A DNA stretch of 64,000 nt from Diabrotica undecimpunctata. Taxonomy: Eukaryota; Arthropoda; Insecta; Coleoptera; Chrysomelidae. The stretch is from contig NC_092804.1 of the NCBI RefSeq assembly GCF_040954645.1, positions 94,446,862 through 94,510,861 on the forward strand, written 5' to 3'. Numbering within the stretch: position 1 is the stretch's first letter; each line of letters begins with the position of its first letter. The notes beneath the pieces were generated by a model, which did not search any database, was not told where the DNA came from, and worked only from the letters and a program-made list of their open reading frames with translations. This document shows positions 13,095-61,400 of the stretch, in pieces. The position numbers and the translations under genes are program-made.

Positions 13095-14224
13095 TAACTA
13101 AAACTACTTCTTAACCTAAACGCCTCAACAAGTTGCCAACGTCACCATTGTTAACCACGTTTATGTACATAATAATATGTTGCCAAATATTCGATTTACA
13201 ATCATTAAAACGCTCGCAAGAGGCGCTTGGTCCAAAACTAATACACAAAAATTAGTCGCTTGCTCTAGTTATGCAAAATTCAAAATCCAAAATAAAAAGA
13301 AAGGTACCTATATTATAACGATTTCGTCGTAGTTGTAAATTAATAGGAGATAAAACCAAATGTAGAGCATATAGTGAAATCTGAATATTTTAGAATAACT
13401 ATATCGAGCGGGAACATTATTGATGAGCAAAAGGGAGACCCATCGCTGAGAAAGTGACAAAGCAATTGGCAAAAGCAAAGGGTATATACTAAAGTACCCA
13501 TACTCTAAAGCATAAGCAGGTCTTTTCGTACTCTTTTAGTAAGTGACAGATTCGACCGTTACTTGATGGAAATTCATTTTATCTAACAATTAAACAGGTA
13601 TGCGTTTACACGTCATATTTTGTAACTGAATAAGTTGAGGAGGGGATAACTGTTTGTCTCAAGTTGGTCATTCAGAATTATGTCTGTATTTTTTAATTTG
13701 CTAATTTCCATAGATTCTAATATTCATGGTATCTACAGATAGCTTAAGGCCTTTATTATAAATACACTTTTTTAGTAATAAAAATATATAAATAGAACCT
13801 AGAATACGCCTGTAAAAGTATGTAACCTTTGATCTCTGGGATAAACCCATCTCCTGAACAATGGTGCCGATATATGTAGGTAAAATTTTCTACACCTATT
13901 TTAACCTGTTTATTTCCTCATTATCAATATATATGAGTTGTAACCGATACCACAAACTCATTTACTTATAGAGTCTATATATTGACTATAGTTATTACTA
14001 TACAAATCTGACTCGAAATATCGTCTTAAAATAACAGCAACAGAAAAGTGAAAGATTAGTCATTTTGTATGAAGGTTAAAGTAGAAGCGTTCACGAAAAT
14101 TGAAGTACTAATAAGACCACCGCAATCGGGCGTACCCTGGGTAATAAACAATTAAGTAATCGTTAATTCTTAAATGACCCGTTCAATATGTTTTTTGTCA
14201 AATCGGTCCTTTTTAGGACCAACT
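13095..14224. other. No recognisable gene
   Basis: AT-rich and apparently unique; no reading frame with a motif. Confidence 0.35.
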
Positions 14225-35190: not shown

Positions 35191-36201
35191 TCATAAACCA
35201 TCGCTATGTTTGAATGTTTGTTATGTGTTAAAAATAGGTGGTTTTAAAAACATTTGGATAAACTTAGTGATGTGCATAGTTATGCAACTAGAAAAAACTC
35301 TAATATAATATCTTTTATTTTGTAAATTAACGAAGACCCACAATACATATGAATATCAGTTTAAAGCTTTTTAACATGTTACTGTAAAATTGTTGTTATT
35401 TTTTTAGACAGCAACCTTAAATAGTTCTTTCATATCGATTTGTTAAGTAAGAATAACTAAGATCTGTTTCGGAACAAATCAATTTAGCATCTTCCAAAAT
35501 AACATATTTTTCTTTGTTAAATCATGTTATCATTATTAAAATATAAAATGTTATCATTATTAAACAATACCAAGATAATTTTATGTGTGAAAATTACAAA
35601 AGATGTCATTTAAAATATTGTGCAATATTGTGTGACCTCTCTACTACATAACACTCACATTCGATGGTCAGCTAGCTCATCCGATTTAAATATAGTTGAC
35701 TTTATTATTATTTATTTTGATTTTGTGTTTAGTTCAGTATATACGTACAAATTTTGTGTACCTTCATTACCACTTTTTTGTATCTTTTTAAACATCTGAA
35801 ATATCAAACTCTGGAGTATAAGTTGATTAACCTGTACCTACGTGTAATAAAAGATAATTAAAACTTGTTTTATAAAGGATATCTGTTAAAAAATAACTGT
35901 ACCAAAAATCAATAAATTTAAATTAACTTCAAAATTTTATTTATGATTAAATATTATAATAACATAATTTTATCACTCTTTATAATTACTATAATTAAAT
36001 TAGCCAAATTATATAAAAACACTTTATAAGTTATTATAAATTATTATTATATTATATTATTATATAGATTATCAAAAGTCTTTCCTATACAACTACATTC
36101 AAATGTGTGAAGAAGTGGTCTTGACTACGTCATGCGCGACGCGAACCGATTTTGGAACATTATGTATCATACCTTGTGTTCATTGTACCATGGTAGGTCA
36201 G

Positions 36202-36465
36202 TATTAGTAAAGCATTATGAGGGAGCAGGTGTATTAAATTTAAACTGGACGAAAAATTACGTCTTTTAATTAAAAATAAGATATTATTTGGTATTTTCCA
36301 AATAATATCTTTGAAACTATATTGTCGTATAGATTTTTTGGAGGTATTAAGTGTGAAAATAAGAATTAGTTCTAAAAAATGAAACAAAAAAAGATAAAAT
36401 TGGTATAAAATTTGTTCTATAAAAATTAAATCAAATAAAAAATAATTCCAACACTACTGTTTAAA
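36202..36465. other. No recognisable gene
   Basis: Flank of the TIR element, AT-rich. Confidence 0.35.
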
Positions 36466-37603
36466 TTAAAAATAACTCCAAACAATTAGAAATTCTAAAC
36501 CAAATTCTTTGGTAATTAAATGTTCAAACCGACCACCAGGTTGTAATAAACAGTAACCAAATCTATTATACAAAGCATTCCTCATGACGTTGAGTTCATC
36601 TGCCGATATGTTTTGGCTATGTTGGATTATATTTCCCTTTAGTTCCTCCAAGTTTTTGGCTTGCTCGAACTCATGTATACAATTTTGTTTTTAGCATCCC
36701 CCAAAAATAAAAATCTAGAGGAGCTAACTCAGTTGACCGAGGGGGCCATTTTATTGTACCGTCTGTACTAATGACACGTTCAGCAAAAATTAATGATAAA
36801 TAGTCTCTAACGACTTTTGCATTATGTGCAGGACATCCGTCTTGTTGAAACCAAATTTCGTTGAAGTTAATTTGAAGACGTTGAAGTGCAGGAATAATTT
36901 GATTTTGCAGTAATTGGAAATATTTGACTGCGTTTAAATTGCCTTCAATGAAAAAAGGACCAATAATATGGTCTCCCAAAATTCCAGTCCAAACATTCAA
37001 TTTTTGGGGATACTGCGTACGCACAGACACACTCAAATGCTTATTCGCCTGAGACCAATAACGTACAGCGGGCGAATTATGTTTCTTGTGAATTGTGAAG
37101 AAGGACTCATCTGTAAACAAAATATTTTTTAAAAAATTAATATTTGCATGGTATCTCTCCATCATAATTTCACAAAATTACATCCGTTTAAATTTATCAT
37201 CAGGAAATATTTCTTGAATTGTCTGCACTTTATAACAATGGTAGTTGTTTCTTTTCAAAATATTCCTCACTGTTATTGCATTCAAATCAATTTTATCGGC
37301 AATTTGTTTACTTGAACACGGCGTCGCTTCAGCCAATGCACAAACTTGAATTTCTCTAATTTCTCGTTCTTGAGAAATTTTCTTTTCGCGAGGTTGATCT
37401 GATGGGCAACATTTTTTACAGCTGCCATTAGTACAGCCAAACTTTTCAAATTGATAAATAATGGCTAATACAGTTTTTTCTATAGATATTGGCCTATTTT
37501 CAAAAGCCATAATAAATAAATTGATAGTTTCTTGTACTGAATTGCTCCCAAAGTACCATTTTATTATTCGTACCCGTTCTTCTGTTGTATAAACAGTCGG
37601 CAT
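36466..37603 (-). pseudogene. Tc1/mariner-type transposase, DD41D spacing (broken)
   Basis: Minus strand from 37,603. A helix-turn-helix region of the DUF4817 kind (VYTTEERVRIIKWYFGSNSV, CALAEATPCSSKQIADKI) precedes an in-frame stop at about 37,176. The catalytic domain then reads ILFTDESFFTIHKK (first Asp), WFQQDGCPAHNAKVVRDYLS (second Asp) and WPPRSTELAPLDFYFWGMLK (third Asp). 41 residues separate the second and third Asp, i.e. DD41D, a spacing reported for the rosa group. A frameshift near 36,655 precedes the C-terminus (FEQAKNLEELKGNI). I could not identify terminal repeats. One stop and one shift make it inactive. Confidence 0.78.
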
Positions 37604-38135
37604 AATTATTTCTTATCTTCACACTTACAAAGTTACCTCCAAAAAGAAATACATAGCTGTCGACAGGCCCACAGCATAGCTGTCGACTTCTCTCGTCTCG
37701 ACGAATGGCGATGTTGCCAAAATTATCTTATATTATTCAAAATTGGGTTACAATTTCGACAAATAAAAATGCGAATCTGTAAATTTTTCATGGATTTTAG
37801 AAATTTCGGACTAGTATTCGTGTCAATTAATGTTTCATTTTTAATATCATCATTAATTTTTGAATTGCAATATAACCGCACCACTGATCGCCAATTTTTT
37901 AAATCAATTCAATGGTTTAATTGAAATATGTAATAAGGCAACCCTGTTGCGTATAAGCTAAGCTGGATCGGAAATTCGTAAGACGTTCATTAACGGGCGT
38001 GTCTAAAAAATGGGGAGGGGAGAAAAAGGGGAAATATATTTGTTTTCTTTGTCTATTCGCTGAAAATATGATTTTATATCTGTGTTAGATATCCGGTTAA
38101 ATTCTACCATACCGACCATAAACTTTTACCTAGAC

Positions 38136-38138
<3 letters not shown>
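37604..38138. other. No recognisable gene
   Basis: Contains CATAGCTGTCGAC twice about 25 bp apart (near 37,652-37,684), otherwise featureless. May hold the undetected right end of the mariner. Confidence 0.35.

Positions 38139-38225
<87 letters not shown>
38139..38225. repeat. (AT)n microsatellite
   Basis: Uninterrupted AT dinucleotides. Confidence 0.97.
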
Positions 38226-38230
<5 letters not shown>

Positions 38231-38919
38231 GTAGATATCGGCGTAGCTCGCAACAAAGGAAAATATATAATAAAATATGTGCATAAGGATGGTATAAGGA
38301 TGGATGTGTATGGAGCAGTTTTAGGCCAAGTATTATTTTGTCCCGATTACAGACTATACAGGACCATAATATATTCTAGATATCAAAAAACACAGACTAG
38401 TTAAGATAGTATTTGTGCTAGTTAGGTATTTTTAACTACAAACTAACCCAATACTTTGACAAGTATGTAATTCTTCCAAAACAGCATTCTCGGGGATAAA
38501 ACAAGAAGCACCAGCCTTCGCTCCATCATCAAAACTGTTTTCACTATTGTTACAAAGTTCCGCTCTACAAATACAAATATTTAGTAATGAAATCATTAGA
38601 CATGATTTAGCACTTCCATATAATAAATATCACGTACCTATTTAATAAATCATCCACAAGTCTTTTTTGTTGTCTTTTATGTTGCCGGTTCGTTCTATCA
38701 AAATTCGTCTTTTCGTTCTGTTTGTTTTAGATAAATTTATTGACGGAACAGCTTCATTTCTTAAAGAACGATGTTTTGCTGGTGTATACCCCAGCAATTC
38801 ATGTTTTAAATTACGTTCATAATCACTTTCGATAAAGTGCGTAAAGCGAACACGAGCAAGTTTAACATTAAAACTATCCTAGCGCTTACGCAAATTTCCA
38901 AAGAGCTTGCATTTCCTTG

Positions 38920-39294
38920 TGTTATGAATTTATTGATTAACTTATAATTTGTTCTATTTTATTTATTATTTCTTTACTAATTTATTATATCGTTCTTATT
39001 TTAATTTATTAAAACACACAGTAATTTATATCAGTTTATTAAACTATTGTACAATTTATTTGACGAACGTTACAATAAAATCGCGGGAGCGGGTCTTCAG
39101 ATATTAACTGTTTCCAAAATGAAAGTTCCGTCATATTTATACGAAAACAGCTGTTCTCGAACCATATGGATGTTGGTTTTTTTATTACTGGGAGTTTCTG
39201 CCAGCTGGTCGAAGGGTCTCGTACAATCTAAAACATATTAGTGAATAAACACATGTTTACAGGTTTTTAATATGACTCATATTTTTACGTAACA
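38920..39294 (-). repeat. Gypsy 3' LTR
   Basis: TGTTATGAATT...TTACGTAACA, 375 bp. Matches the other LTR except for about eight substitutions and a 65-bp deletion after GGATGTTG. The ORF in it is a shadow. Confidence 0.9.
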
Positions 39295-39312
39295 TTGCCC
39301 CCCTCTTAAAAC
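39295..39312 (-). promoter_or_regulatory. Polypurine tract
   Basis: On the minus strand a purine run with six G lies immediately upstream of the 3' LTR, the plus-strand priming site in LTR elements. Confidence 0.7.
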
Positions 39313-39356
39313 GAAGATTCCTCCTGGAACCTTGTCGGGACTGGAACTGGAACGGT

Positions 39357-39413
39357 ATGTTGGTATCGGCAATTGGACCCTCTTTTACAACTTCCAGTTG
39401 TATAAAAATGACA
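39357..39413 (-). other. CCCH zinc finger at Pol C-terminus
   Basis: CHFYTTGSCKRGSNCRYQH gives C-x7-C-x5-C-x3-H, the RNA-binding CCCH class. It follows the macro-like domain by about 14 residues, close to the stop. Confidence 0.8.
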
Positions 39414-39452
39414 AGGGACGGTTTTCTCTCCGCACCAGTAACTATGCGGATT

Positions 39453-39842
39453 GCAACAGACTAACACCTGGACTTTGGTGTCTTTAAAGATCTCCTCCAC
39501 CATATTTCGGATAACCCTCCAATCTAATTGGCGGCACTCCAACTTTGGCATGGCTAACTTTTGCACGTCGGACTCTAGTACGTGCTCTCTCAATTGAAGT
39601 AAGGCTTCCCATACATCTCGGTAGGTAGGTTGGTCACGGGCAGTGTCTTTTGTTACCAGGTAGAAAAGGTAACGTGGTGCATCTTGGAGTTTCAAGGTTT
39701 TACCGGGAGCTGGCACTTGGCATTGAAGTTCTGCAACTCGACCAAACTTCCTTCGAAAGACGGATGCCAACCCTGGTGCTTCTTTGATACTGACCGGAAT
39801 GGTAAGGGCCAGCGAGTAGTCATCGGAGAGCGCGAGTAGATC
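39453..39842 (-). other. Macro-like (ADP-ribose-binding) domain within gypsy Pol
   Basis: Residues about 675-804 of the Pol frame. The order of conserved blocks (SLA then PGLA--F--KFG; RY-FYLVTK; PTY---W-AL; AMP-L-C--LDW; I--VF-DT-V-V-V) follows the TARG1-type macro domain. The Lys in LVTK is kept. The Gly-rich catalytic loop is shortened. A macro domain binds ADP-ribose or removes it from proteins; what it would do for a retrotransposon is unknown. The frame is open through the domain, so it was not picked up as a dead fragment. Confidence 0.7.
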
Positions 39843-42443
39843 TTGCTTTTCTTCAGTGGTAACACCATGTCTTGCTTTACCGGTACCTCCATAGGCACCC
39901 ATGAATTCCTCAAACGTGAGGTCAGACACATCTTGGACTTGGTTTACTTCCACTTCTTCATCTACCTCGTGGTCACCTTCGAAAGACGCCAGCCGGTTAT
40001 GGTGTACTATCATCTGCTTTCCCTTCGGAATATTGCTTATTCGGTAGATTACATCGTTGATCTTCTCCATAATTAAGTATGGGCCTTCCCAAAACTGCTG
40101 CAATTTGGGAGAACAACATTTTCGCTTGTTGGGATTATAGAGCCAGACTTTGTCGTTCTTCTTAAAGCAACCCTTTTCGGCTTGTGTATCGTACCGTTTC
40201 TTCATTCTGTCGCTAGCGATCTGAAGGTGGGAACGGACCAACTCATGTACATCGTCCATTCTTCTTCGTAATTCGATCACATAATCTTCACCTGCTACAT
40301 CTTCTCCAGGTCGACACCCAAACTCTAGATCACAAGGTAGTCGCATTTCGCGTCCGAATAGGACTCTGGCTGGTGTCTGGCCTGTTGATTCGTTAACAGC
40401 AGATCTGTAGGCCATTGTGAAGAACGGAAGGTATTGGTCCCAGTCTCGCTGATGATCGGACACCATCTTTGTCAAATACTTGCCAACTGTCCTATTCATT
40501 CGTTCTACCATACCATCCGATTGCGGATGATATGCTGTAGTTCTTGTTTTCTTCATGCTTAGTCTATCACATATTCCTTGGAATAGATCACTTTCGAAGT
40601 TCCTGCCTTGGTCACTATGGATCTCCAAAGGCACTCCAAATCGGCTGATATATTCTTGGATCAACTTATCTGCTACGGTGGCGGACTTCTGGACTGGAAG
40701 TGCGTAAATCTCGACCCACTTAGTGAAGTAATCCATTACTACCAACATGTACTTGCCTCCATTTTCATTTTCTGGAAATGGCCCAGCGATGTCCAAAGCT
40801 ATTCTTTCAAACGGGCTTCCAACATTATATTGTCTCATAGGAGCTCTCCTTTTTCGATAAGGCTCGTTACTCGTAGCACAAATAGTACATTTCTTACACC
40901 AGTCTTTTACGTCGTCGGAACTGTTCATCCAATAAAACCGTTCCCGAATTCGCTGAAGGGTTTTCTTTACAACAAAATGCCCTCCTGATGGACTGTCGTG
41001 TAACTGACGAAGTACTTCGGCTATTCTGCTCTTTGGGATCACCAACTGTCTTCTCTTCTCTGAACCGTCATCAGAACACTCTGCTGGACATGGCCTTCTG
41101 GAAAGAGAATCAGCGTTTCTGTGGCTAACTCGGGCCCGGTGCTCAATCTTGAAATCGTATTCTTGGAGTCGTTCGATCCATCTGGCTATCTGACCCTCTG
41201 GATTCTTGAACTGCATCAACCATTTAAGGGCGGCATGGTCGGTTCGGATTAGAAACTTTCTGCCATAGAGGTATTGATAGAAGTGCTCTACTGATTTAAC
41301 TACTGCTAGAAGTTCTCTTCTCGTGACGCAATAATTACGCTCAGGTTTTGAAAGAACTTTACTAAAATATCCGAGGACTCGTTCCTGTCCTCCTTGAATC
41401 TGAGACAGCACTCCTCCAATTCTCACATTACTTGCATCTGTATCTAAGATGAACTCTCCTTCTGGCAGTGGATACCCTAAAATTGGTGCTGTTATTAAAT
41501 GCTTTTTCAAGGTCTCAAAGGCATTCTGGCAGTCTGTATCCCAGCGGTAATCTCTTGCTTCCTCTGTGAATCGCGTTAATGGCTTAGCGATATCTGCAAA
41601 CTTCTTAATAAACCTTCGGTAGTAAGTACATAGTCCAAGAAAACTTCTCACTTGATGTTTGTCCGTTGGTACTGGCCATTCCTTAATGGAATCAATTTTT
41701 CCCTTATCCACGGCCACTCCTTCTTTACTGACTATATGACCCAGATAATTGACTTTACCTTGAAATAGCTGGCACTTCTTGGGGTTTAACATCAATTGGG
41801 CAGCTTTAAGTCGATTAAAAACGTTTTCTAAATTCTTCAAATGTTCTTCAAATGTCTCCCCCAAGACGATTATGTCATCTAGATAAACCAGGCATGTTTT
41901 TCAAGATAACCCTCTCAACACATTTTCCATAAGCCTCTCAAATGTCGCAGGAGCATTACAGAGTCCAAATGGCATAACGTTGAATTGCCACAATCCAGAT
42001 ACCGTGGCTGTCTTCTCTTTATCTACTGGGTCCATTTCTACCTGCCAGTATCCAGACTTCAAATCCAAAGTAGAAAACAATTTACTTCCAGCCAATGTGT
42101 CCAATGTGTCGTCGATCCGAGGCAGAGGATAACTATCTTTCTTGGTAACGTTGTTCAGCAAACGGTAATCCACACAGAATCTCGTCGTTCCGTCTTTCTT
42201 CTTAACCAGGACCACCGGATAGACCCATGGGCTCGTAGAAGGTTCTATCACCCCATCTTTCTTCATTTCCTGAACAGTTGTTTCAGCTTCCTCTCTTTTC
42301 GCCTGTGGTAATCGTCGAGCTGTTTCACGAATTGGCTTAGCATTACCAGTATCAATTTTATGCTTAACAACGGTAGTTCTTCCCGTATTTCCTCCTTTCG
42401 GTACGAAAATATCACGATACTGCCGAAGAAATTCCCTTAATTT

Positions 42444-43056
42444 CTATTTCTCCATCTGATTTAGAGACTGTCCTGCAACTGCAACCATTTGGTCGAATTT
42501 GTCGTTGGAATTATCAGATGTTGTCGCCTGACGGATTATGGATGTCACAGGTACACAAGTTCCTACTTTTGTCTCTTTCTTGATGGTCACTGGGTAGTCG
42601 TTGACATTGATAAGTCTCACAGGAATTTCTTTAGCCGAAGTCACCAATTCCTTTCCAATTCTGATTCCACGGCCAACCTCATCGTCATGGTTCCAAGGCT
42701 CCATCATAACAGGTGTCCCTTCGTCTACAATTCCCTGTAGTCGCGCTACTATGATCGTTTCGCTTCTTCGCTATAACAGTATGGACGAACTTTTCTGCTC
42801 CAATTCCCAATTGTACCTGTATTTCTCCATGAATGTTGGCATTTTCACCTGTAGCGGTCCGAAGTCGCAACCTCGTTGGTAACAGTTTCTTACGGCTGTT
42901 TATAACTGTTGGGCGTATAATGGTTCTGGTCGCTCTGGTATCCACCAACAACGTATGTCTTTTACCATTTATTTCTCCATCTACATATACACTATCTTCA
43001 CGACATTTCAAAGAAGCTATTAGTATAAGAGGGTCCTTGGAAAAGTTTCGGGTCAA
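42444..43056 (-). pseudogene. Gypsy protease region
   Basis: The frame reads YVDGEINGKRHTLLVDTRAT. The catalytic triplet DTG, expected in retroviral-type aspartic proteases, is DTR here. The flap region follows (RLRLRTATGENANIHGEIQV). A frameshift near 42,755 moves to the frame beginning MEPWNHDDEVGRGIRIGKEL. The Gly-to-Arg change would abolish protease activity. Confidence 0.7.
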
Positions 43057-43082
43057 AGCTGCCCCCCTAAGGCTGACCCGTT

Positions 43083-44218
43083 CTAGTTTTCCTGGTGGTG
43101 AGTTTCTTGATTTGCGTCGTACCTAGGGTGCTTACATGAACTTCGTACGTGTCCTATTTCGCCACAATTCCAGCATCTTATGGTCTTCGTTTTCTTGTAT
43201 GTCATACTCTTAATCATATTAACGAGCTGGTCAAGTTTATCTTCATCTCCTTCCTCTTTTACAGTCCTAACTTTACTGTACCCTCCAGAGGCCTTAGCTG
43301 ACTCGTATTCGAGGGCGGCGGATAAGACATCAACCAGCGTCTTGTGACGAGCTAATCGTAGTGTTCTCTGCATTTCATGATCACGAAGACCATCAATAAA
43401 CGTTTGAACGGCCAATTTTTCCATCATGTCTTCGGGAGCTGTTGGATAAGCATATCGTACTAATCTGGCAATATCTACCTCATATTCTTGAAGAGCCTCA
43501 TCTTTTTTCTGTCTATGATTTTTAAGCTGCGACTGATATACATGCTCCAAATGTTCGTGGCCATATCGCATATTTAACCTTTTCTTAAGTTGTTCGAAAT
43601 CATCCGTCTCTTCTGCGGCTATGGTCTGAAGCACATCTAAGGCATCTCCTCGAAGAGCGATAGTCAGGTTTACAGCCTTTTTTTTTTAGACCATCCATTC
43701 GCTCTTGCAGCTGATTCCAACTGTTTCATGTAGTTATTCCATGACGATTTTCCGTCGAAAGTTGGGACTTTAACATGAACAGAACCTTCACTTTTTTCAA
43801 ATTTCAGTCGTGTTTCCAACTTACATTTCGTCTTGTCTTCTTTTGTCTTTACTGTAATTGGAATGTATCCTCTCTCTGCTGTCCCTGTTTCCTCCATCTT
43901 CCTTTCCATCTCTTTCATCTTTTCTTCGAAGGCCAACTTATCGGCAGCAAGTTGGTTGTTTAACGAAGATATTCTATCGTCCAGGGCAGACATCTCAGAA
44001 GTAACTTTAGAGATTTCCGAAGAGATGTTAGCAGAAACTTTGCTTTCCAAGGAAGAAATCTCGTTAGAAAATTTGTTTTCTAAAGAAGCGATGTCGCCGG
44101 AAACTTTCGAAATATCGCCAGAAACTTTGTTCTCTCATGATGCGATGTCACCAGAAACTTTCGCAATCGACGAGATAACAGCAACATGCTTGTCTTCAAA
44201 TATATAAATTTCCGGATC
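43083..44218 (-). pseudogene. Gypsy gag, main part
   Basis: Minus strand from the LINE junction at 44,218. A heptad-rich coiled coil has repeated KVSGDI(S/A) units and an in-frame TGA near 44,133. Then come FDGKSSWNNYMKQLES, a shift in an A-run near 43,680, and capsid-like helices (QTIAAEETDDFEQLKKRLNM, LQEYEVDIARLVRYAYPTAP). The nucleocapsid knuckle CWNCGEIGHVRSSC (C-x2-C-x4-H-x4-C) follows. The end is at 43,083. The N-terminus lies beyond the LINE at 54,542-54,670. Confidence 0.8.
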
Positions 44219-44370
44219 ACAGTTCGAATTCGTTAGTCAAGGTGGGTGGACGTATTCGAGTTTTGTGAATTAGCTGGTGATTGTTTCTTGTAAAATATAA
44301 GAAGTGTAATTAGTTTTTAGTTTTGGTATTGATATTTACGGAGAGCATATTAGAGTTTTTTAAGGCGTAA

Positions 44371-45715
44371 GTGATGTCAAAAAAAACGGGCGGCGATAAG
44401 CCGCCCGATGAAAAAAACACTGATAGTGATAATAGCAGGTATGTTCAGCAAATAGATATGAATAACAGTTATAGACCAGGAGATAATGGTCCATTTTATG
44501 TGTTTGTGGAACATAAAAATAAAAATTTAGGGAGACTTTTTCCAATTAAAATAGGGCACTTTCTACTTAAAGATGAAATTTTAAAAAAAGATGTAATAGA
44601 CATTAAACCGGTAGGAGTTAATAGGGTAAAGGTTATTTTTAATACCTTAGAAATAGCCAATAGTTTAGTTAACCACGAAGTTATATTAAAAAATGAGTTA
44701 ATAGCATTTATACCTAAATTCTACACTCACAAAAAAGGAGTTGTCAGGATGGTAGATACTTTCTTTTCTGAAGAATATTTATTAACGGCTATCAAATCAA
44801 ACAAACAGGTATTAAGTGTCAATCGTATGAAAAGGAAAATTATAGACTCTGATGGAAATGTAGTTTTGGTAAATAGACAAATGATAATAGTAGAATTTTT
44901 AGGAAATGAAATTCCAAAATGTATACAAAGAAATTTATGCAATTTTCATGTTGAACCTTACATACAACCCGTTGTACAGTGTTTCAAATGTCTGAGATAT
45001 GGCCACTCAGACTAGGCTATGGCTAGCTAGACAATGTAAATCAAAAAATGAGAGATTCCAAAAGTGTACAGATACAAGTCATACAAAAGAGGATTGTAAA
45101 GAAAATAATTTGTGTATTTATTGTAATAATAACGACCACCCCTCAATTTCACGTATTTGTCCTGTATATGCAAAGCAAAAAGGGATAAAACAAATTATGT
45201 CAGTTGAAAACATTTCCTTTAAAGAAGCCGAAAATATATACAATAATCCATCATATGCGAAGGTGGCTACGAATAACCGTTTCTCTATTTTAAACAACGA
45301 TAACAATTTTCCAACTTTACCGAATACTTCTGGCGGCAGTCCATCATCTAATAGTACTTTTAAAAAACCAAAACCAGCTTCTAAAGTGAATACTGTTAAA
45401 ACAATTAAACGAACACACCCAACCTCTCCTACACCAGATATGATGCCTGTAAAAAAATCTTTTAAACCTAGTCAAAAACCTAAACCCATTATACCTAACC
45501 CCTACAGAGAAGAATTTATGGACTATAAAGAGAAAACTATAATGTTAATTACCTCCTTCCTAAATAAATTTCAAAAAAATTTTCAATTACCACCAAATAC
45601 TCTCATGGAATCTAATATCCGGGACTTTGTAGAAAGTGCATTTGTTCCAAGTGATCCAAATGATGCCATGGAAACATATAGTGAATCAGATTCAAGTGAA
45701 AAACTATTTTACTGA
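44371..45715 (+). pseudogene. I-like LINE ORF1 (gag-like), frameshifted
   Basis: The first frame (44,371-45,015) has an Asp/Asn-rich start and an RRM-like middle (FYVFVEHKNKNLGRLFPIKI, VNRVKVIFNTLEIANSLV). It ends in a zinc knuckle, VVQCFKCLRYGHSD, where a TAG breaks it. The second frame (to 45,715) continues with KCTDTSHTKEDC, CIYCNNNDHPSISRICPVYA and the conserved MSVENISFKEAENIYNNPSY. A Pro/Lys-rich tail follows. Multiple CCHC knuckles are the norm for ORF1 of I and Jockey-type LINEs, which packages the RNA. One frameshift near 45,010 disables it. Confidence 0.8.
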
Positions 45716-45913
45716 TTAAACTTTAAAAATGGCGAATAAACAAACAATTAAAAACCAATTAGTAATTTTGCAGTGGAATAGTAGATCAATAACATCTAAT
45801 AAAAATAATTTCTTAAATTACCTTAATAAAAACCATGTTGATATTATCATACTTTCCGAAACTTGGCTTAGGTCTAATAGTAATTTTAATATTAAGGGAT
45901 ATAACTTCATTAA

Positions 45914-48315
45914 CCTTTCCGTGGCCGTGCGGGGTATTTTAGGTACCCCACTTGCGGTTTTGTTTTTATAACTTTTCAAAATATTTTTATTTTTCTTTAT
46001 CCCTCCAGGTAATCTTAGAAAATATATTACCAAATCATTTTTTTGTAAAAATTATTAAATATAATTTCAATTTTATAGTAAAATTGAAATTAATTCCTTG
46101 GGGTACCTCCGTTACCCCGCACGGCCTGCTGCGTATTGAAATCATACGCGTATATTCCTGTCGTCAGCCAGCCAAATATGATGTAAACGAAATGAAATGA
46201 AATGTAAACAATATTCTATTTTTAGATTACTGTTAGACTAAAATAATCAGGTTTAGATTACTTTAGTCGATCTTAGTAGTAATTTCTTTGCTTTGCGCTA
46301 CGTATTTGTGTATTTCGGAGAAAATGGCGCGACGTAAATATTATACTGAAGAGGAATTAAGTAGAATTTTAGAAGAGAGTGACAATGATGAATACGAGAT
46401 CAGTGATAGTGAATCAGAAAGTACCGACAATGTCGAAGAACAACAAACAGTTCTAGATGAAATTACAGTCTCTGAAAATGAAAGTGAAAAGTCTACTTTT
46501 GAGCCAATTGCGGAAATACTAATATCGAAATCAGGATATGAATGGAAAACGCAACCCCCTGCACCTACAAGGCGCAAGGCTCATAATATATTAAATTGTC
46601 GAGAAGGTTTACAAAATAATAGGTGAGTAGGTATACATTTTGAAAATAAACAAATGTTTTGATTAATTCGCAATTCGTTTTATGACAATATGCTACAGAC
46701 ATATGCACTCACACAAATCGACATGGAGAAGTATATTCTGAAAAATTTAATGAAACTCATCCTGATGATCAAATGCGTTGGAAGAATGTTACAATTACTG
46801 AATTATACGCTTTCATTGCAGTGCTTATAGCAAGTGGGAGGAATCACGGAAGAAAACTCCACTTGTCGGAAATGTGGGCCGAAAATGAACTATTCAAACA
46901 ACCATTCTTTACTGCTGTAATGTCTAGAAATAGATTCAAAATGATATATAGACACTTGCGATTTGATGACCCCTCAACAAGAGCAAATAGAATAATAAAA
47001 CAAAAGATAAACTACAAGCAATTCGCAATACATACGATCAATTTGTAAAAAATTGCGTTGATAATTATTCACCTGGTGAAAATATCACAGTCGATGAGAG
47101 ATTAGCTACATTCAGAGGAAAATGTCCTTTTAGAGTTTATATAAAAAGTAAACCTGGTCGATATGGAATAAAAATTTGGGTTTGTTCGGACTCTGATACT
47201 GCTTATATTTTGAACAGTCAGATATACACTGGAATGATAGAAAATCAACGAGAAATAAATCAGGGTTTTAGGGTATTTCTAGACATGGTTAAACCCTATT
47301 TTGGATCAGGGCGTGTAGTTACCACAGACAATTTTTTTACCTCTGTTCCCCTAGCCGAAGAACTGCTAAGACGTCAACTTACAATTACGGGAACTCTAAG
47401 GGCCAACAAAAAAGAGATTCCTGCTGAATTTGCTCCAAATTCTGCGCGCGAAGAACGTTCCTCTATTTTTGGATTTTCTAATGATCTCACATTAGTATCC
47501 TATGTATCTACAAAAAAGAAAGCTGTCATTTTGTTATCGACACAGTTTCACAGCGACGAAATATCCTCTGATGAAAAAGAACAACGTAAGCCTGAAATTA
47601 TTTTACACTACAATAAAACCAAAGGGTCAGTTGACACCGGAGATAAAATGACTAGAGAATATACATGTGTTCGTTCAACTAGGAGATGGCCATTTAGGAT
47701 TTTTATGGAAATTATTGATATGGCTGCACTCAATGCCTATATTATATTTACTAAAAAGTTTCTCGATTGGAAGAGTAATGACCGAAGTAGGCGAAGAATT
47801 TTTTTACAAAACTTGGCAGAAGAACTTTCATTCCCAAACGTTCTACACCGGAAACAGAATAATAAAAATTTTCACAAAACTGTAAAAAGTGCAATAGACT
47901 TATTTCTCTCTAATAGCAATGCCACTGTGTCAGAAACCCCTGCCAGAGACATTCAACAATATACAAATCGAAGATGCAGCTTTTGTGCCAGAACACGGGA
48001 CAGAAAGACTAAAATATCATGTAGTACATGCAGAAAACCCATATGCAACATACATCGAGAAGAAACTAAAACATTTTTTTGCCCTGACTGTAAAAATGAT
48101 AAATAAGATCATATTATTGTAATTACAGGTAAAATAAAAAAAATGTACATCTTTTTAATAATAAAAACAAATTATTTCAGTGACTAGAGCTTTATTATAT
48201 AACTTTCCAAACAATAATGTATAATTTAAATGAATTATTAAAGTATTTTAGTGGGGTACCATAGTTACCCCGCACGGCCTGCAACGTAAGTTTTTATAGC
48301 ACGATTCCGGAAAGG
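45914..48315 (+). mobile_element. piggyBac transposon, 2,402 bp
   Basis: TTAA flanks both sides (45,910-45,913 and 48,316-48,319). The ends CCTTTCCG are inverted copies, and subterminal GGCCGTGCGGGGTA with GGTACCCC palindromes occur at both ends. Removing the element and one TTAA rejoins the LINE ORF2 in frame (ATT AAA AGG). Size, target and ends are all canonical. Confidence 0.93.
46324..48106 (+). pseudogene. piggyBac transposase (one frameshift)
   Basis: The start MARRKYYTEEELSRILEESD opens an acidic N-terminal region. A GTGAGT at about 46,623 and a CAG near 46,695 bound an intron or short gap. NVTITELYAFIAVLIASGRN then begins the DDE domain. A one-base shift near 47,000 separates FDDPSTRANRI from SPGENITVDERLATFRGKC (first Asp). 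The second Asp is in VVTTDNFFTS and the third in KGSVDTGDKM. The C-terminus has a Cys-rich finger (RRCSFCARTRD, CSTCRKPICNIHRE, FFCPDC). Only the shift, and possibly lost residues at the 46.62-kb junction, impair it. Cut-and-paste at TTAA. Confidence 0.85.
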
Positions 48316-48504
48316 TTAAAAGGTGTCGTGATGACGGATATGGCGGAGTTGGTATATTTATCTTACAAACAATTAACTATCAAGAAAGTGAAATAATTCA
48401 AAACTTTTCAAGGGGCATTGAAGTATGTGCAGTATTTATTCCAGATATAAATATTTCTTTCGTTTCAGTATACAAACCTTCAGACATAGCAGCCACAAAA
48501 AAAA

Positions 48505-48775
48505 GGGTATACCGACAAAAGGACGCGGAAAAAAGGACGCATAAAAAAGGACGCGGAAAAAAGGACGCGCGAAAAAAGGACGCGTGGAAAAAAGGACGCG
48601 TGGAAAAAAGGACGCATATTATTAATGAAATACTATAAATAGTTTATTTTAATTGACAATAGCAATTACCCCCGTTTATCCCCTATATATAATTACAGAA
48701 AATGATTCTACCTAACCTAAAATCGGTTACGGTAAAAGTAAAAAGTGAAAAATATTTATATGAAAAAAACTTGCC
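48505..48775 (+). repeat. MULE left TIR with GGACGCG minisatellite
   Basis: Seven units of about 16 bp (GGACGCGGAAAAAA, GGACGCATAAAAAA, GGACGCGTGGAAAAAA...) followed by a unique part inverse to 50,742-50,880 (CCTAACCTAAAATCGGTTAC). Confidence 0.9.
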
Positions 48776-48918
48776 TTCACACTTTATCCAGGCTTAGGAG
48801 TGGCAGCAGAAGCTGGCGTGTTTACAAGTTTTTTTTTATTTTTTTTTATTTTTTGCTTTTTTTGGAATTTTTTTGTCATTTTATTTTTGTTTTGTTTTAT
48901 TTTTGATATTAATTTTTT

Positions 48919-50325
48919 TTATGTTTGCAACTGAAAATTGTGAGCAATGCCTCTCAAATATTCTAAAGTTGGTCTGTCAGCATAATCGGCAACAATAGTC
49001 CTTATCCTGTTTGCTGTATCTTGATATTTTCTTTTGCGTGGAGGTACATTGCCCGAAATGTACTGCTCTATTTTCAAAACATTTAAATCATATTCTTTTT
49101 TTAGAGAATTAATAAATTTCCAAATATTCGGATGTGCACTATTGAGAAGAGAAGAAAAGCTGTTGTGCCATCCTTCGACAGCATTATTAGTTCGAGGTAT
49201 ATCTTGGTCTGCCAAATCGTAACAATTCCATACATTTGCTGGAAAAAGGGGTTGTCTTCGATTTCCTCTTCTAGCTAATCTCCCTACCCAAGTGTCTTCA
49301 AAGTAATTAATCAGCGGCACTAGTAGTTCTTCATTTTGTGTATAAAAATCGCTATTGAGCAACTCCTCGTACACTCTGACTACATGGTTGTCTGGAACAA
49401 ACGCAAGAGCTGTCAATTGTCTTAGGTGAAGGGCGAAGTCAGGATTCTCAATATATCTACGTTGCAATCCGGCACTTTGAATATGGCGCCACATACACTG
49501 CGAGAAATGAAAAAAACATCCGCGGATTCTCACATTTGGGAACTCAGTTTGTGCAGCATTCATTGCCGCTCTTTCAAAGTCCATCATTATTGTTAGAGGG
49601 CGCAAGGCCGGATTCAACACCTTTAGTTGCTGAAAAACACGTGTATAAGTCTCTTGTGTTTTGTTCGTTAGAAGTGCAAATACAGTCGGGATTACATTAC
49701 TGTATCGCACTCCATGAATTGTGTATATTTGAGAAAACAATGGTGGTGCTGAGTTAAATGTTCCATCGGCATACCAATGATCGCATTGTTCCATAAATCT
49801 TAAATATCTTTGTGTTGAAAATAACAAAATACGTTCTTCTTCTGGCCCGCTATCAAATAATAGAAATAGCTCACCGCCTGTAGTTGTTTTATATTCTTCA
49901 GGAAGCACAAGTTCTTCTAAATTTCTCGGATTTGCGGGCGTACCTTCTAGCTCGTTCCGAACTCTTTGCACAGTTTTTTTTAACGACGACACTGATGGAA
50001 GTTGTGCCGTAGCAGCTAAGGAAAGTCCTTGAGAAATTTCACTTACTACACCTTGGGTGGAGTGTTCCAGTTGTTGTGCAACTTCTTTCATCCGGTTACA
50101 AGCTTCTTTTGCTTCAATCTTTGCCGTGTCTGCAACGTGATTATGTTCTGTGGATTTTGTAATTTCATCCACAACGGTATGCACTCTTCCTGTACATTTA
50201 CACTTATTATAAGTAGCACACTTCCAAATTGTCTTTTCACCAACCACTCGCTCTTTTTTATGGAGAAATCCATTATAAAGTAACAAGTTGTTGCCTTTTT
50301 GGCTTTTCACAAACGCTAACACCAT
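48919..50325 (-). CDS. MULE transposase with FLYWCH-type zinc finger
   Basis: 468 residues, uninterrupted. Residues 5-65 form a FLYWCH/WRKY-like finger (NNLLLYNGFLHKKERV, WKCATYNKCKCTGRVH, EHNH). A linker leads to the MULE core: WYADGTFNSAPPLFSQIYTI (Asp187), LTIMMDFERAAMNAAQTEFP (Asp249), GCFFHFSQCMWR (the Cys-x2-His motif, 270-273) and TNNAVEGWHNSF (Glu384). This DDE order is that of MuDR-like transposases. The start is an ATG with no earlier in-frame start. It has all catalytic residues and full inverted repeats on both sides, so this copy could be capable of movement. It is antisense to the host LINE. Confidence 0.9.
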   Translation of the reverse strand: MVLAFVKSQKGNNLLLYNGFLHKKERVVGEKTIWKCATYNKCKCTGRVHTVVDEITKSTEHNHVADTAKIEAKEACNRMKEVAQQLEHSTQGVVSEISQGLSLAATAQLPSVSSLKKTVQRVRNELEGTPANPRNLEELVLPEEYKTTTGGELFLLFDSGPEEERILLFSTQRYLRFMEQCDHWYADGTFNSAPPLFSQIYTIHGVRYSNVIPTVFALLTNKTQETYTRVFQQLKVLNPALRPLTIMMDFERAAMNAAQTEFPNVRIRGCFFHFSQCMWRHIQSAGLQRRYIENPDFALHLRQLTALAFVPDNHVVRVYEELLNSDFYTQNEELLVPLINYFEDTWVGRLARRGNRRQPLFPANVWNCYDLADQDIPRTNNAVEGWHNSFSSLLNSAHPNIWKFINSLKKEYDLNVLKIEQYISGNVPPRKRKYQDTANRIRTIVADYADRPTLEYLRGIAHNFQLQT

Positions 50326-58452: not shown

Positions 58453-61400
58453 GTGCAGTGGAACTGCGATGGGTTCTACCCTCGCTTAGAACGCTTACAA
58501 CAATTAATAAATAATACAAAAGCAGATATTATCTGCCTTCAAGAAACCAATTTCAAGGAAACACATAGACGTGAACTTAAAAATTTTGAAGGTTACCATT
58601 TTCTTAGGCCTACGTTTATAAGAGCAAGTGGGGGAACATCTATCTTCGTGTCTAATGATTTATTTTCTATACAATATATCCTAACCACCAATTTGGAGGC
58701 TATAACAATAACTGTCTGGTGTCCCGACCAAATAACCATATGCAGTACATATATTCCACCTAATTATAACTTAACAGAAACCGAGTTAGATGATTTAATC
58801 CGCCAACTTCCCAGTCCTTTTATACTAGTTGGAGACTTTAACGCCCATAATACCATGTGGGGCTCAAAGAAAACTTTTGGTAGAGGAAAAACCGTAGAGG
58901 CCGTATTGAGTTGCAATAATACTTGTCTGATGAATAGTGGAGCCAGTACATATTTTAACATTGCCTCAGGAACTTACTCATCTATCGATCTAAGCATATG
59001 TGATCCCAAGTCTGCCGATTCACTCTCATGGTATACTTTAGATAGCCTATATGATAGTAACCACTTTCCGATAGTCATAACAAATAGCAATAAAAATTTC
59101 TGCACCATTACTAAATGGAATATCGCTAAAGCGGACTGGAATAATTTTCAAACTAGCGCCGAAGATCATATGTTATTACTTCAACAATCTGAAGATATAG
59201 ACGAGGCAATAACTCTCTTTAACAACTGCATTATTATGTCTGCAGAAAATCATGTAAAAAAAATAACAACCCTCTAAAAAAGCAGTACCATGGTGGAATT
59301 CAGAATGTGAACTAACTGTACGTCAATGCAAAACAGCCCTCAATAGATATCGAAAAAGAAGAACTCAAGAAAACCTAATCTATTTCAAAAAGCTAAGAGC
59401 CAAAGCGAAATATGTCCTTAGAAAAAACAAAAAAGATTCCTGGCAAAATTTTGTCTCTACAATTACTAGTGATACTCCACCATCTAAAGTTTGGATAAAA
59501 ATAAGACAAATGAAAGGTCATAAAACTCCTCCAAAAATTCCAGCAATATCACTGAATGGAAACGTTATAACAGATAACCAAAAAATTGCTCAAATAATGG
59601 CTGAAAGTTTTGCATGGAAATTCAGGTCTGAAGTCGAACAGATTGAAAGTCCAAATGACCAGAATATACAAATTCCTCTTGTTCCACAAATTAGTAGACA
59701 CGACATTGATGCTATTAACCTTCCTTTTACACAAGAAGAATTAGCACTTGCACTATCCTCTTGTACGAACTCCGCCGCTGGACCAGACAATATCCCAATT
59801 ATATTCATCAAAAATTTATCTCATTCCAGCCTCGCAACACTGCTGAATCTTTATAACAAGATATGGCATACCCAGCAATTACCCAAACTGTGGCGTGAAT
59901 CAATTATCATACCAATAAAAAAATCTGATCTACCCTCAAACCTAACAAAATCATACAGACCTATCTCTCTAATCTGTTCATTATGTAAACTGTTTGAGAA
60001 AATGATTAATTCAAGATTAACATGGCTTCTCGAAAAATATGCAATAATTGACTCAGCGCAATCCGGTTTCAGACGTCACCGCTCAACTCTTGACAATTTA
60101 GTGCTATTACAAACACAAATAGCTTCCGCTATTTCAAACAAACAGGATCTGATCGCTACTGTCTTTGATATAGAAGGAGCTTTTGATACTATCTCGCGCC
60201 AAGCCATTCTTGAAAAGCTTCGTCAATACAAGATAACAGGAAATATTTACTCCTTCATAAAAAACTTTTTACAACAAAGAACGTTCAAAGTGAAAACAAA
60301 TGGGGAAATTTCGGCGACATTCGGGCAAGATAATGGAGTTCCACAAGGTTCAGTACTCAGTACAACACTGTTCATTCTTGCAATAAATGATATTTGTTCT
60401 AGTATTTGTCCACCAGTCAAGCACTTAATATACGCAGATGACCTTATTTTATATTGTCAGGGAAAAAGTACAATCGCCACATGCAACGTACTCCAAACCG
60501 CTGTAAATCAACTTAGCGAATGGTCCAAAAAAACCGGATTAGCCCTTTCAACGACTAAATCCAAATTAATACGGTTTAGCAGAAGACCTTGCAGCCAAAG
60601 TCCAATTATCACCCTTAATGGAACTACATTGCAACTAGTTACTCATCACAAAATACTTGGTTTAACGTTTGATAGTAGGCTAACTTGGAAACAGCATATT
60701 AGTGTATTAAAGGGCAATGCAATGAAGAGACTCAATATCATCAAGGCACTATCAAAGTACACATGGGGTGCGGACGAAACCATCTTACTTAATATATATA
60801 GAGCTTTAATCCGCTCAAAACTAGACTACGGCAGCTTCATATATATGTCTGCATCAAAATCTGACTTAAAGCTACTGAACTCTGTGCATAACACTTCTAT
60901 TCGTCTTTGCTTAGGCGCTTTCAAATCCAGTCCCATAGATAGCCTTTACTGCGAGGCTAATGAACCACCTCTCTGGATTCGACGAGAGTATCTTCTCCAA
61001 TCTTACTTTGCTTCCGTATCCGCAAACCCATCCAGTCCAGTCTACCATTTAATTACTTCAACATCGCCTCCGGAGGCCCCACAAAGGATCCAATCAATAA
61101 TAGACATCCAGAAATTAACTCTAAGAAATTCCATCGACCTTACTAAAACACATCCCTTTCCAATCCCGGATACCCCGCCTTGGAATAGACCAATCCCACA
61201 TTCAATCACTTGTCTATTAGAATACAGTAAACATGAAACCTCAAGCCTTCTCATAAGGCAACACTTCAAAGAAATTATAAGCAAGTACCAATTCCAAACA
61301 ATTCTGTATACAGATGCCTCCAAAAGCGAAGCAGGCGTTGGATGTGCCGTTACCAACATGATGAAGTAATCAAATCATCTTTTTTACCGAATTTATGCAG

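Follow-up and report, generated by a model that had tools for sequence, protein, structure and literature searches.

The macro domain protein TARG1 (also OARD1 or C6orf130) removes ADP-ribose from glutamate and aspartate residues and from the phosphate ends of DNA breaks and RNA, as stated in the available part of PMC6582358, and its mechanism relies on Lys84 and Asp125 (PMC9411070, available part). ADP-ribosylation has also been connected with the silencing of retrotransposons: in the sections of the papers at hand, Drosophila PARP-1 is described as occupying and silencing copia and gypsy (PMC3964218), and SIRT6 as mono-ADP-ribosylating KAP1, which silences L1 (PMC4695847). A limited literature search by titles and abstracts gave no precedent for a macro domain in an LTR element.

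Here we describe the remains of a Ty3/gypsy element in a window of 64,000 nucleotides from the genome of Diabrotica undecimpunctata. The element is of a known kind with a tail for which this search gave no precedent, a TARG1-like macro domain and in many relatives a CCCH zinc finger behind the integrase, and the domain capture is real and recurs in a clade of retrotransposons known mainly from beetles.

Structure and state of the copy in the window

An initial annotation, made from the letters of the window, had proposed one open frame leading from integrase through a macro-like segment into a CCCH finger. This was confirmed with a minus-strand frame of 852 residues (39306-41864), which comprises the end of reverse transcriptase, RNase H and integrase and passes from the integrase C-terminal domain through a linker, the macro domain and the finger to a stop at 39306 (Table 1). 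The residues D358, D418 and E454 were located where they had been placed; the range given for the tail, 39306..39850, includes the finger and misses a few codons of the macro domain, which spans about 39453-39866. The complete domain order is present in the relatives P0026 and P0029. Compared with P0001, a Pol of 1339 residues, the frame has 76% and 89% identity in two stretches. A motif like FxxFM...GKARxGVT was seen by eye in the linker of many relatives.

Table 1. Positions of the element's features in the window
Feature	Position	Strand	Basis
3' LTR start (TGTTACG...), extends to lower coordinates	39288..39294	-	TGTTACG after the tract in other copies
Polypurine tract GAGGGGGGCAA, immediately after the stop codon of the window copy	39295..39305	-	read from the sequence; similar tract after the tail in other copies
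3' part of gypsy Pol (RNase H, integrase), macro-CCCH tail and stop codon	39306..41864	-	single ORF of 852 amino acids; Pfam
CCCH zinc finger, C-x7-C-x5-C-x3-H	39357..39413	-	Pfam PF00642, 1.1e-6 on the tail; PDB relatives, e.g., CPSF4
TARG1-like macro domain, about 138 residues, Lys84 equivalent kept, Asp125 equivalent lost	39453..39866	-	
Linker, about 40 residues	39867..39986	-	family comparison by eye
Integrase C-terminal domain	39987..40085	-	Pfam PF22938, 3.5e-12
Integrase catalytic core, D358/D418, E454 just downstream	40524..40814	-	Pfam PF00665, 7.1e-12; residues checked
Integrase H2C2 zinc-binding domain	40866..41039	-	Pfam PF17921, 1.1e-19
RNase H-like domain, residues 108-236	41157..41543	-	Pfam PF17919, PF17917
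Upstream remains of the same element (reverse transcriptase, protease, gag with CCHC knuckle), broken frames, outer bound approximate	41901..44200	-	

The Pol frame itself reaches the polypurine tract, and there is hence no space before the 3' LTR for an env ORF such as Errantivirus-like gypsy elements have. One of the other loci which show the tract followed by TGTTACG is cut off inside the latter. In copies L031-L036 homology extends for 389-504 bases, counted from 9 bases before the end of the tail, and then stops; in L030 it extends for about 185. Among seven other copies compared, L031 has a stop at the position of that of the window copy, and six have no visible stop there; in these six the frame seems to run on for a few codons, through the tract and into the start of the LTR. 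Several related proteins have a C-terminus such as LRRGQC or FKGGAV, which looks like translated polypurine tract. The LTR of the window copy diverges after TGTTACG from those of other copies, despite tails which are 96-98% identical, and the LTRs of the other copies fall into several types.

The upstream remains include three ORFs (41901-42266, 42685-43056 and 43083-43634) and show by eye a likeness to the reverse transcriptase and protease of P0001; the gag region contains a CCHC knuckle, CWNCGEIGHVRSSC. The polypurine tract and the start of the 3' LTR are present; a repeat search of 36000-50000 revealed no 5' LTR, and a LINE-like ORF adjoins the gag remains there. Between RNase H and integrase, 85 residues of P0001 are absent from the window copy, with a matching gap in comparison with other copies. 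The window copy is dead, since its Pol frame is broken above 41864, the 85 residues are deleted and the repeat search found no 5' LTR. The frame is not a host gene, as it ends at a polypurine tract and LTR start and is repeated through the genome.

The window is rich in transposable elements, since pieces of reverse transcriptase, RNase H and endonuclease occur at many places; besides the element described here they were noted at 14188, 19466, 29626, 32938 and 52983, and a 619-residue ORF with reverse transcriptase (RVT_1, 1e-38) lies at 59510-61369. Two minus-strand ORFs at 36671-37603 resemble by eye a mariner-type transposase, the one at 36671-37165 having no Pfam match at E 0.001, and a pure (AT)n microsatellite (38139-38227) separates the mariner-like from the gypsy pieces. 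On the other side, two plus-strand ORFs resembling by eye LINE ORF1 (44371-45715) adjoin the opposite-strand gag remains, and are followed by a piggyBac-type transposase domain (47210-48106; DDE_Tnp_1_7, 7e-34), a 14-base tandem repeat just past it (about 48503-48619) and a single ORF with MULE transposase and FLYWCH zinc finger (48919-50325).

The macro domain, its catalytic residues and the finger

Human TARG1/C6orf130 was matched by tail residues 33-173 with an E value of 1.2e-20 (phmmer against PDB sequences), and the predicted structure of the tail (28-row alignment, mean pLDDT 87.5) had TARG1 as its best structural match; in both sequence and fold the tail thus agrees with the TARG1 (ALC1-like) type of macro domain. 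Of the checks which the initial annotation had proposed, the Pfam scan of the window tail gave no match to Macro, whereas the zf-CCCH match and the TARG1-like predicted fold were obtained. Chance resemblance to TARG1 was ruled out by the phmmer and fold matches, and also by the occurrence of the same tail in further species and in additional copies within its own genome. A reading of the tail as DarG, a bacterial antitoxin, was rejected with a score far below the cut-off of that family.

In the window copy, the loop ECRQLD is two residues shorter than its counterpart GCGLDRLQW in TARG1 and has no usable residue at the place of Asp125; Lys84 is kept, and only half of the catalytic pair is therefore present. 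The altered loop had been recognized correctly. Since the equivalent of Asp125 is gone and Lys84 remains, hydrolysis in the window copy is likely lost or altered, and to this extent the earlier suggestion that the domain may bind without hydrolysing stands; it does not extend to the family.

A census of residues began with 48 macro rows, i.e., 40 from the best 120 of 1478 matches to an integrase and tail query, seven from a shorter query and the window, fragments included. Rows with fewer than 120 filled macro columns and rows at least 90% identical were dropped (48 to 41 to 30), and the remaining 30 non-redundant complete tails still contain P0008, a broken protein with a broken macro domain. 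The dyad of Lys84 and Asp125 is kept in 22 of the 30 and absent in 8. Asp20 occurs in 30/30, Gly43 in 29/30 and Lys84 in 27/30, and the pocket residues are among the most conserved of the tail; position 35, Ser in human TARG1, is Ala in 19/30. Seven tails without Asp (window, P0001, P0002, P0003, P0004, P0008 and P0010) form one clade with support of 100/99, and in the eighth dyad-less tail, P0023, Arg stands for Lys. The Asp-less branch retains the fold, Asp20, mostly Gly43 and mostly Lys84; ADP-ribose binding may also have been lost in it, since Lys84 is replaced by Arg in two of the seven and the phosphate loop is shortened in four. Judged by these residues, the commonest form of the tail is likely a hydrolase, the dyad form being common and the Asp-less form of the window looking derived.

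The finger has the spacing C-x7-C-x5-C-x3-H which the initial annotation gave (39357-39413). When the tail was scanned alone, PF00642 scored 28.9 bits against a cut-off of 20.5, with the C-C-C-H residues intact, and the closest solved relatives of the tail after TARG1 include CPSF4-type fingers (PDB sequences). The finger is present in 19/30 non-redundant tails. Six fingerless elements (P0022, P0026-P0029 and P0033) form one branch (support 88/84) in which the dyad is kept; some of the other absences are due to cut gene models or contigs.

Relatives, origin and selection

With the tail of the window as query, a Pol of 1339 residues bearing the same tail was found (65% identity in the tail). 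A short query added more Pol ends and proteins of Diabrotica virgifera, two of them named "ADP-ribose glycohydrolase OARD1-like", as well as Aquatica leii and Psylliodes chrysocephalus; at least some of the beetle proteins with such names (P0003, P0005) are probably transposon pieces. With integrase plus tail as query, 1478 matches were obtained, and 40 of the best 120 have the macro domain, a share which is biased upward by the ranking, best first. An organism is named for 20 of these 40, and 17 are beetles (Molorchus minor 10, Aromia moschata 4, Callosobruchus maculatus 3); two rows labelled Erysiphe pulchra and one labelled Klebsiella pneumoniae are probably contaminants. The protein P0011, an Erysiphe pulchra record, continues past its macro-CCCH tail with a segment that weakly matches Ty3 capsid and with a CCHC knuckle; this is perhaps a gene model spliced across adjacent elements. 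Among the 80 macro-less rows of the best 120, 54 have 6-24 residues after the integrase C-terminal motif and five have 70-85; the tail of P0039 is cut, P0125 continues with 175 residues of another kind, and for P0053 and a further 18 rows the motif was either wrongly placed or missed.

In an integrase tree of 106 rows, from which 17 of 123 rows with a short integrase match (16 of them tail-bearing) were left out, 27 tail-bearing and three tail-less rows (P0039, P0041 and P0048) form one branch with SH-aLRT 99. At least four changes of the tail label are needed on this tree, and the well-supported branches force at least two, a pattern which fits one gain with losses, though there may have been several gains. 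The macro domain is gone from P0039, which by eye retains an apparent end of the finger and is to be regarded as a secondary loss of the tail; P0048 diverges basally within the branch, and its lack of a tail may be primitive. All 31 tails in a macro tree of 50 rows group together (support 100/92), separately from 18 phage rows and human TARG1, the sole cellular TARG1 included; 18 of 28 viral-contig loci were used, L001 being omitted because its translated match hits a stop. Since the 31 tail macros form one clade, a single source for them is favoured. An origin from viral contigs was rejected: the tail alone matched none of them, and the family alignment matched 28 loci, of which the two with ORFs read (L001 and L018) hold a free-standing TARG1-like ORF.

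In the assembly of 1.74 Gb, the tail query yielded 6092 first-look candidates; 150 were scored, a set biased to good copies, and these were 96-100% identical, one having an internal stop. ORFs around tail matches reach 1422 and up to 1847 residues, so that some copies are intact. Searching with integrase DNA, and thus independently of the tail, led to 30 loci including the window; the tail was found in 30/30 and no tail-less copy was seen among them. The tail extends to the last codon in 25 of these copies; at least one stop occurs in 14 and alignment gaps in 12, and some shared stops may stem from the neighbouring duplicate copies L083 and L084. In-frame tails were therefore found both in other copies and in related species. 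The proposed capture of a TARG1-like module and a CCCH finger by a gypsy-type element is supported by relatives, trees and copies, which show both joined in frame to the C-terminus of Pol as a lasting component of the element. A one-off fusion with host DNA, with the other members ending after the integrase, had been named as the finding that would speak against capture; it is ruled out by the many relatives, the single integrase clade and the tail in 30/30 copies of the same genome, though three members of the clade are tail-less.

Compared with the reference copy L043, the 29 copies other than the window showed 169 synonymous and 175 nonsynonymous differences in the tail, corresponding to a pN/pS of about 0.30, a rough value with site counts from the last copy and inherited differences counted many times; the same kind of sum gave 0.15 for the integrase piece. 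When distinct tail changes were pooled, 71/234 were synonymous (63.7 expected, p 0.16). Changes in a single copy were synonymous in 48/185 cases (49.0 expected), and those common to several copies in 23/49 (14.6 expected, p 0.009, uncorrected for multiple tests). The shared changes comprised 17/35 synonymous in the macro codons alone (11.0 expected, p 0.026, uncorrected), 4/9 in the finger (2.3 expected, p 0.17) and 2/5 in the linker (1.4 expected, p 0.45). For the integrase, used as control, the values were 28/36 for shared changes (10.6 expected, p 3e-9) and 31/123 for single ones (29.6 expected). Because shared changes show a synonymous excess and single-copy changes look neutral, we read these data as selection on the tail during copying of the element, weaker than on the integrase, and none after insertion. 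The selection check proposed for the macro segment thus had a divided outcome, with an excess in shared changes and pooled tail changes near neutral. Two further sets of 8 and 20 copies from the same genome had been picked among the best protein matches; the low number of nonsynonymous changes in them is biased by this choice and carries no weight here.

Possible roles and comparison with known systems

The reading which we hold to be somewhat better than even is that a Ty3/gypsy clade acquired and kept an ADP-ribose macro-CCCH tail, acting mostly as an eraser and in the branch of the window as a reader. This clade, known mainly from beetles, gained the TARG1-type macro domain and the finger behind the integrase, most likely once, and has maintained them at the C-terminus of Pol. 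Most lineages have a tail with the Lys-Asp pair, which probably strips mono-ADP-ribose, for which the nucleoprotein of the element, its DNA or RNA ends, or silencing host proteins would be candidate targets, and the finger would anchor the tail on RNA or cDNA. A TARG1 linked to Pol could relieve silencing, make ends ready for integration or designate targets for the integrase. In the Asp-less branch the element multiplied to at least 150 copies with the equivalent of Asp125 gone; the module there would most likely be an ADP-ribose reader fixed to the integrase, which would tether the complex to ADP-ribosylated chromatin or protect the marks from enzymes of the host, and the success of this branch argues that binding alone could suffice. 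The replacement of human Ser at position 35 by Ala in 19/30 tails, the weak selection on the tail, the further changes at Lys84 and in the phosphate loop of the Asp-less branch and the tail-less members of the clade count against this reading. More tentatively, and a little less likely than not, the whole clade may depend on ADP-ribose, with an integrase-borne hydrolase which would disarm host ADP-ribosylation or clear integration ends, and one branch turned into a reader and greatly expanded in a beetle genome.

A tail acting purely in counter-defence, removing host mono-ADP-ribosylation which restricts or silences retrotransposons, either in chromatin or on RNA or proteins of the element, as viral macro domains do for RNA viruses, with the Asp-less branch as a secondary loss, appears somewhat doubtful. 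The dyad retained in 22/30 tails, the silencing of retrotransposons by PARP-1 and SIRT6 (available parts of PMC3964218 and PMC4695847) and the viral fold matches, of which the top three include the insect viruses Kadipiro virus (VP8) and a Frankliniella flavi-like virus, are in accord with it. Yet the branch of the window lost Asp and was amplified all the same, and a free eraser would need no place behind the integrase. The tail might instead help integration, either by removing or reading ADP-ribose on DNA ends and gapped intermediates or by targeting the integrase to ADP-ribosylated chromatin, as the chromodomain does in chromoviruses, where it presumably has the same position. TARG1 works on ADP-ribosylated DNA ends (PMC6582358, available part), and a reader could do without Asp125; however, the CCCH finger, typical of RNA binding, is left unexplained, and we regard this possibility as rather unlikely.

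The tail might also be a module for packaging or translation, whose finger and macro fold would bind RNA in the particle, any ADP-ribose chemistry being incidental; the finger occurs in 19/30 tails, and CPSF4-type fingers are among the best PDB relatives after TARG1. Such a role is improbable, considering that the six-element branch keeps macro domain and dyad without a finger and that the pocket residues are among the most conserved. That the tail is a passive passenger or artefact, i.e., a neutral fusion with host DNA, is very hard to credit: three members of the clade lack it or have it truncated, it decays in dead copies, with stops in 14 of the 30 copies examined, and the pooled changes are indistinguishable from neutral, but the frame was kept open across many separate elements of one clade and the shared changes show a synonymous excess.

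If a genomic parasite has taken up an ADP-ribose eraser or reader, this would point to a restraining or guiding effect of ADP-ribosylation on insect retrotransposons that is large enough to favour elements with such a module, and the contest between host and transposon may involve ADP-ribose signalling. The natural series of tails with the dyad kept, the finger lost or Asp lost could be used for testing the purpose of the domain.

Compared with TARG1/OARD1/C6orf130, the domain is here fused behind an integrase and often followed by a CCCH finger; the branch of the window is without Asp125, and position 35 of the tails is mostly Ala. RNA viruses (alphaviruses, coronaviruses, Kadipiro virus) likewise have a macro fold inside a viral protein, and Kadipiro virus VP8 was the best viral fold match, with 34% identity to the tail; the macro domains of VEEV and SARS virus are called MACROD-like in the available part of PMC6582358, unlike the tail. 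Macro folds near that of the tail also occur in proteins of insect-associated flavi-, virga- and negev-like viruses, and among the 50 viral fold rows shown, many of them nameless, none was named as an LTR element. With the "412 / K02A2.6-like" Ty3/gypsy elements of arthropods, the element shares the order of protease, reverse transcriptase, RNase H and integrase (in relatives), the polypurine tract and the LTR, and its integrase is common to tail-less elements; these mostly have 6-24 residues after the integrase C-terminal motif (54 of the 80 macro-less rows among the best 120), in contrast to about 190-300 here. In chromoviruses a chromodomain, presumably a domain of the chromatin-reading type captured at the same place, occupies the C-terminus of the integrase; a Pfam scan found none in the frame of the window, which carries the macro domain instead.
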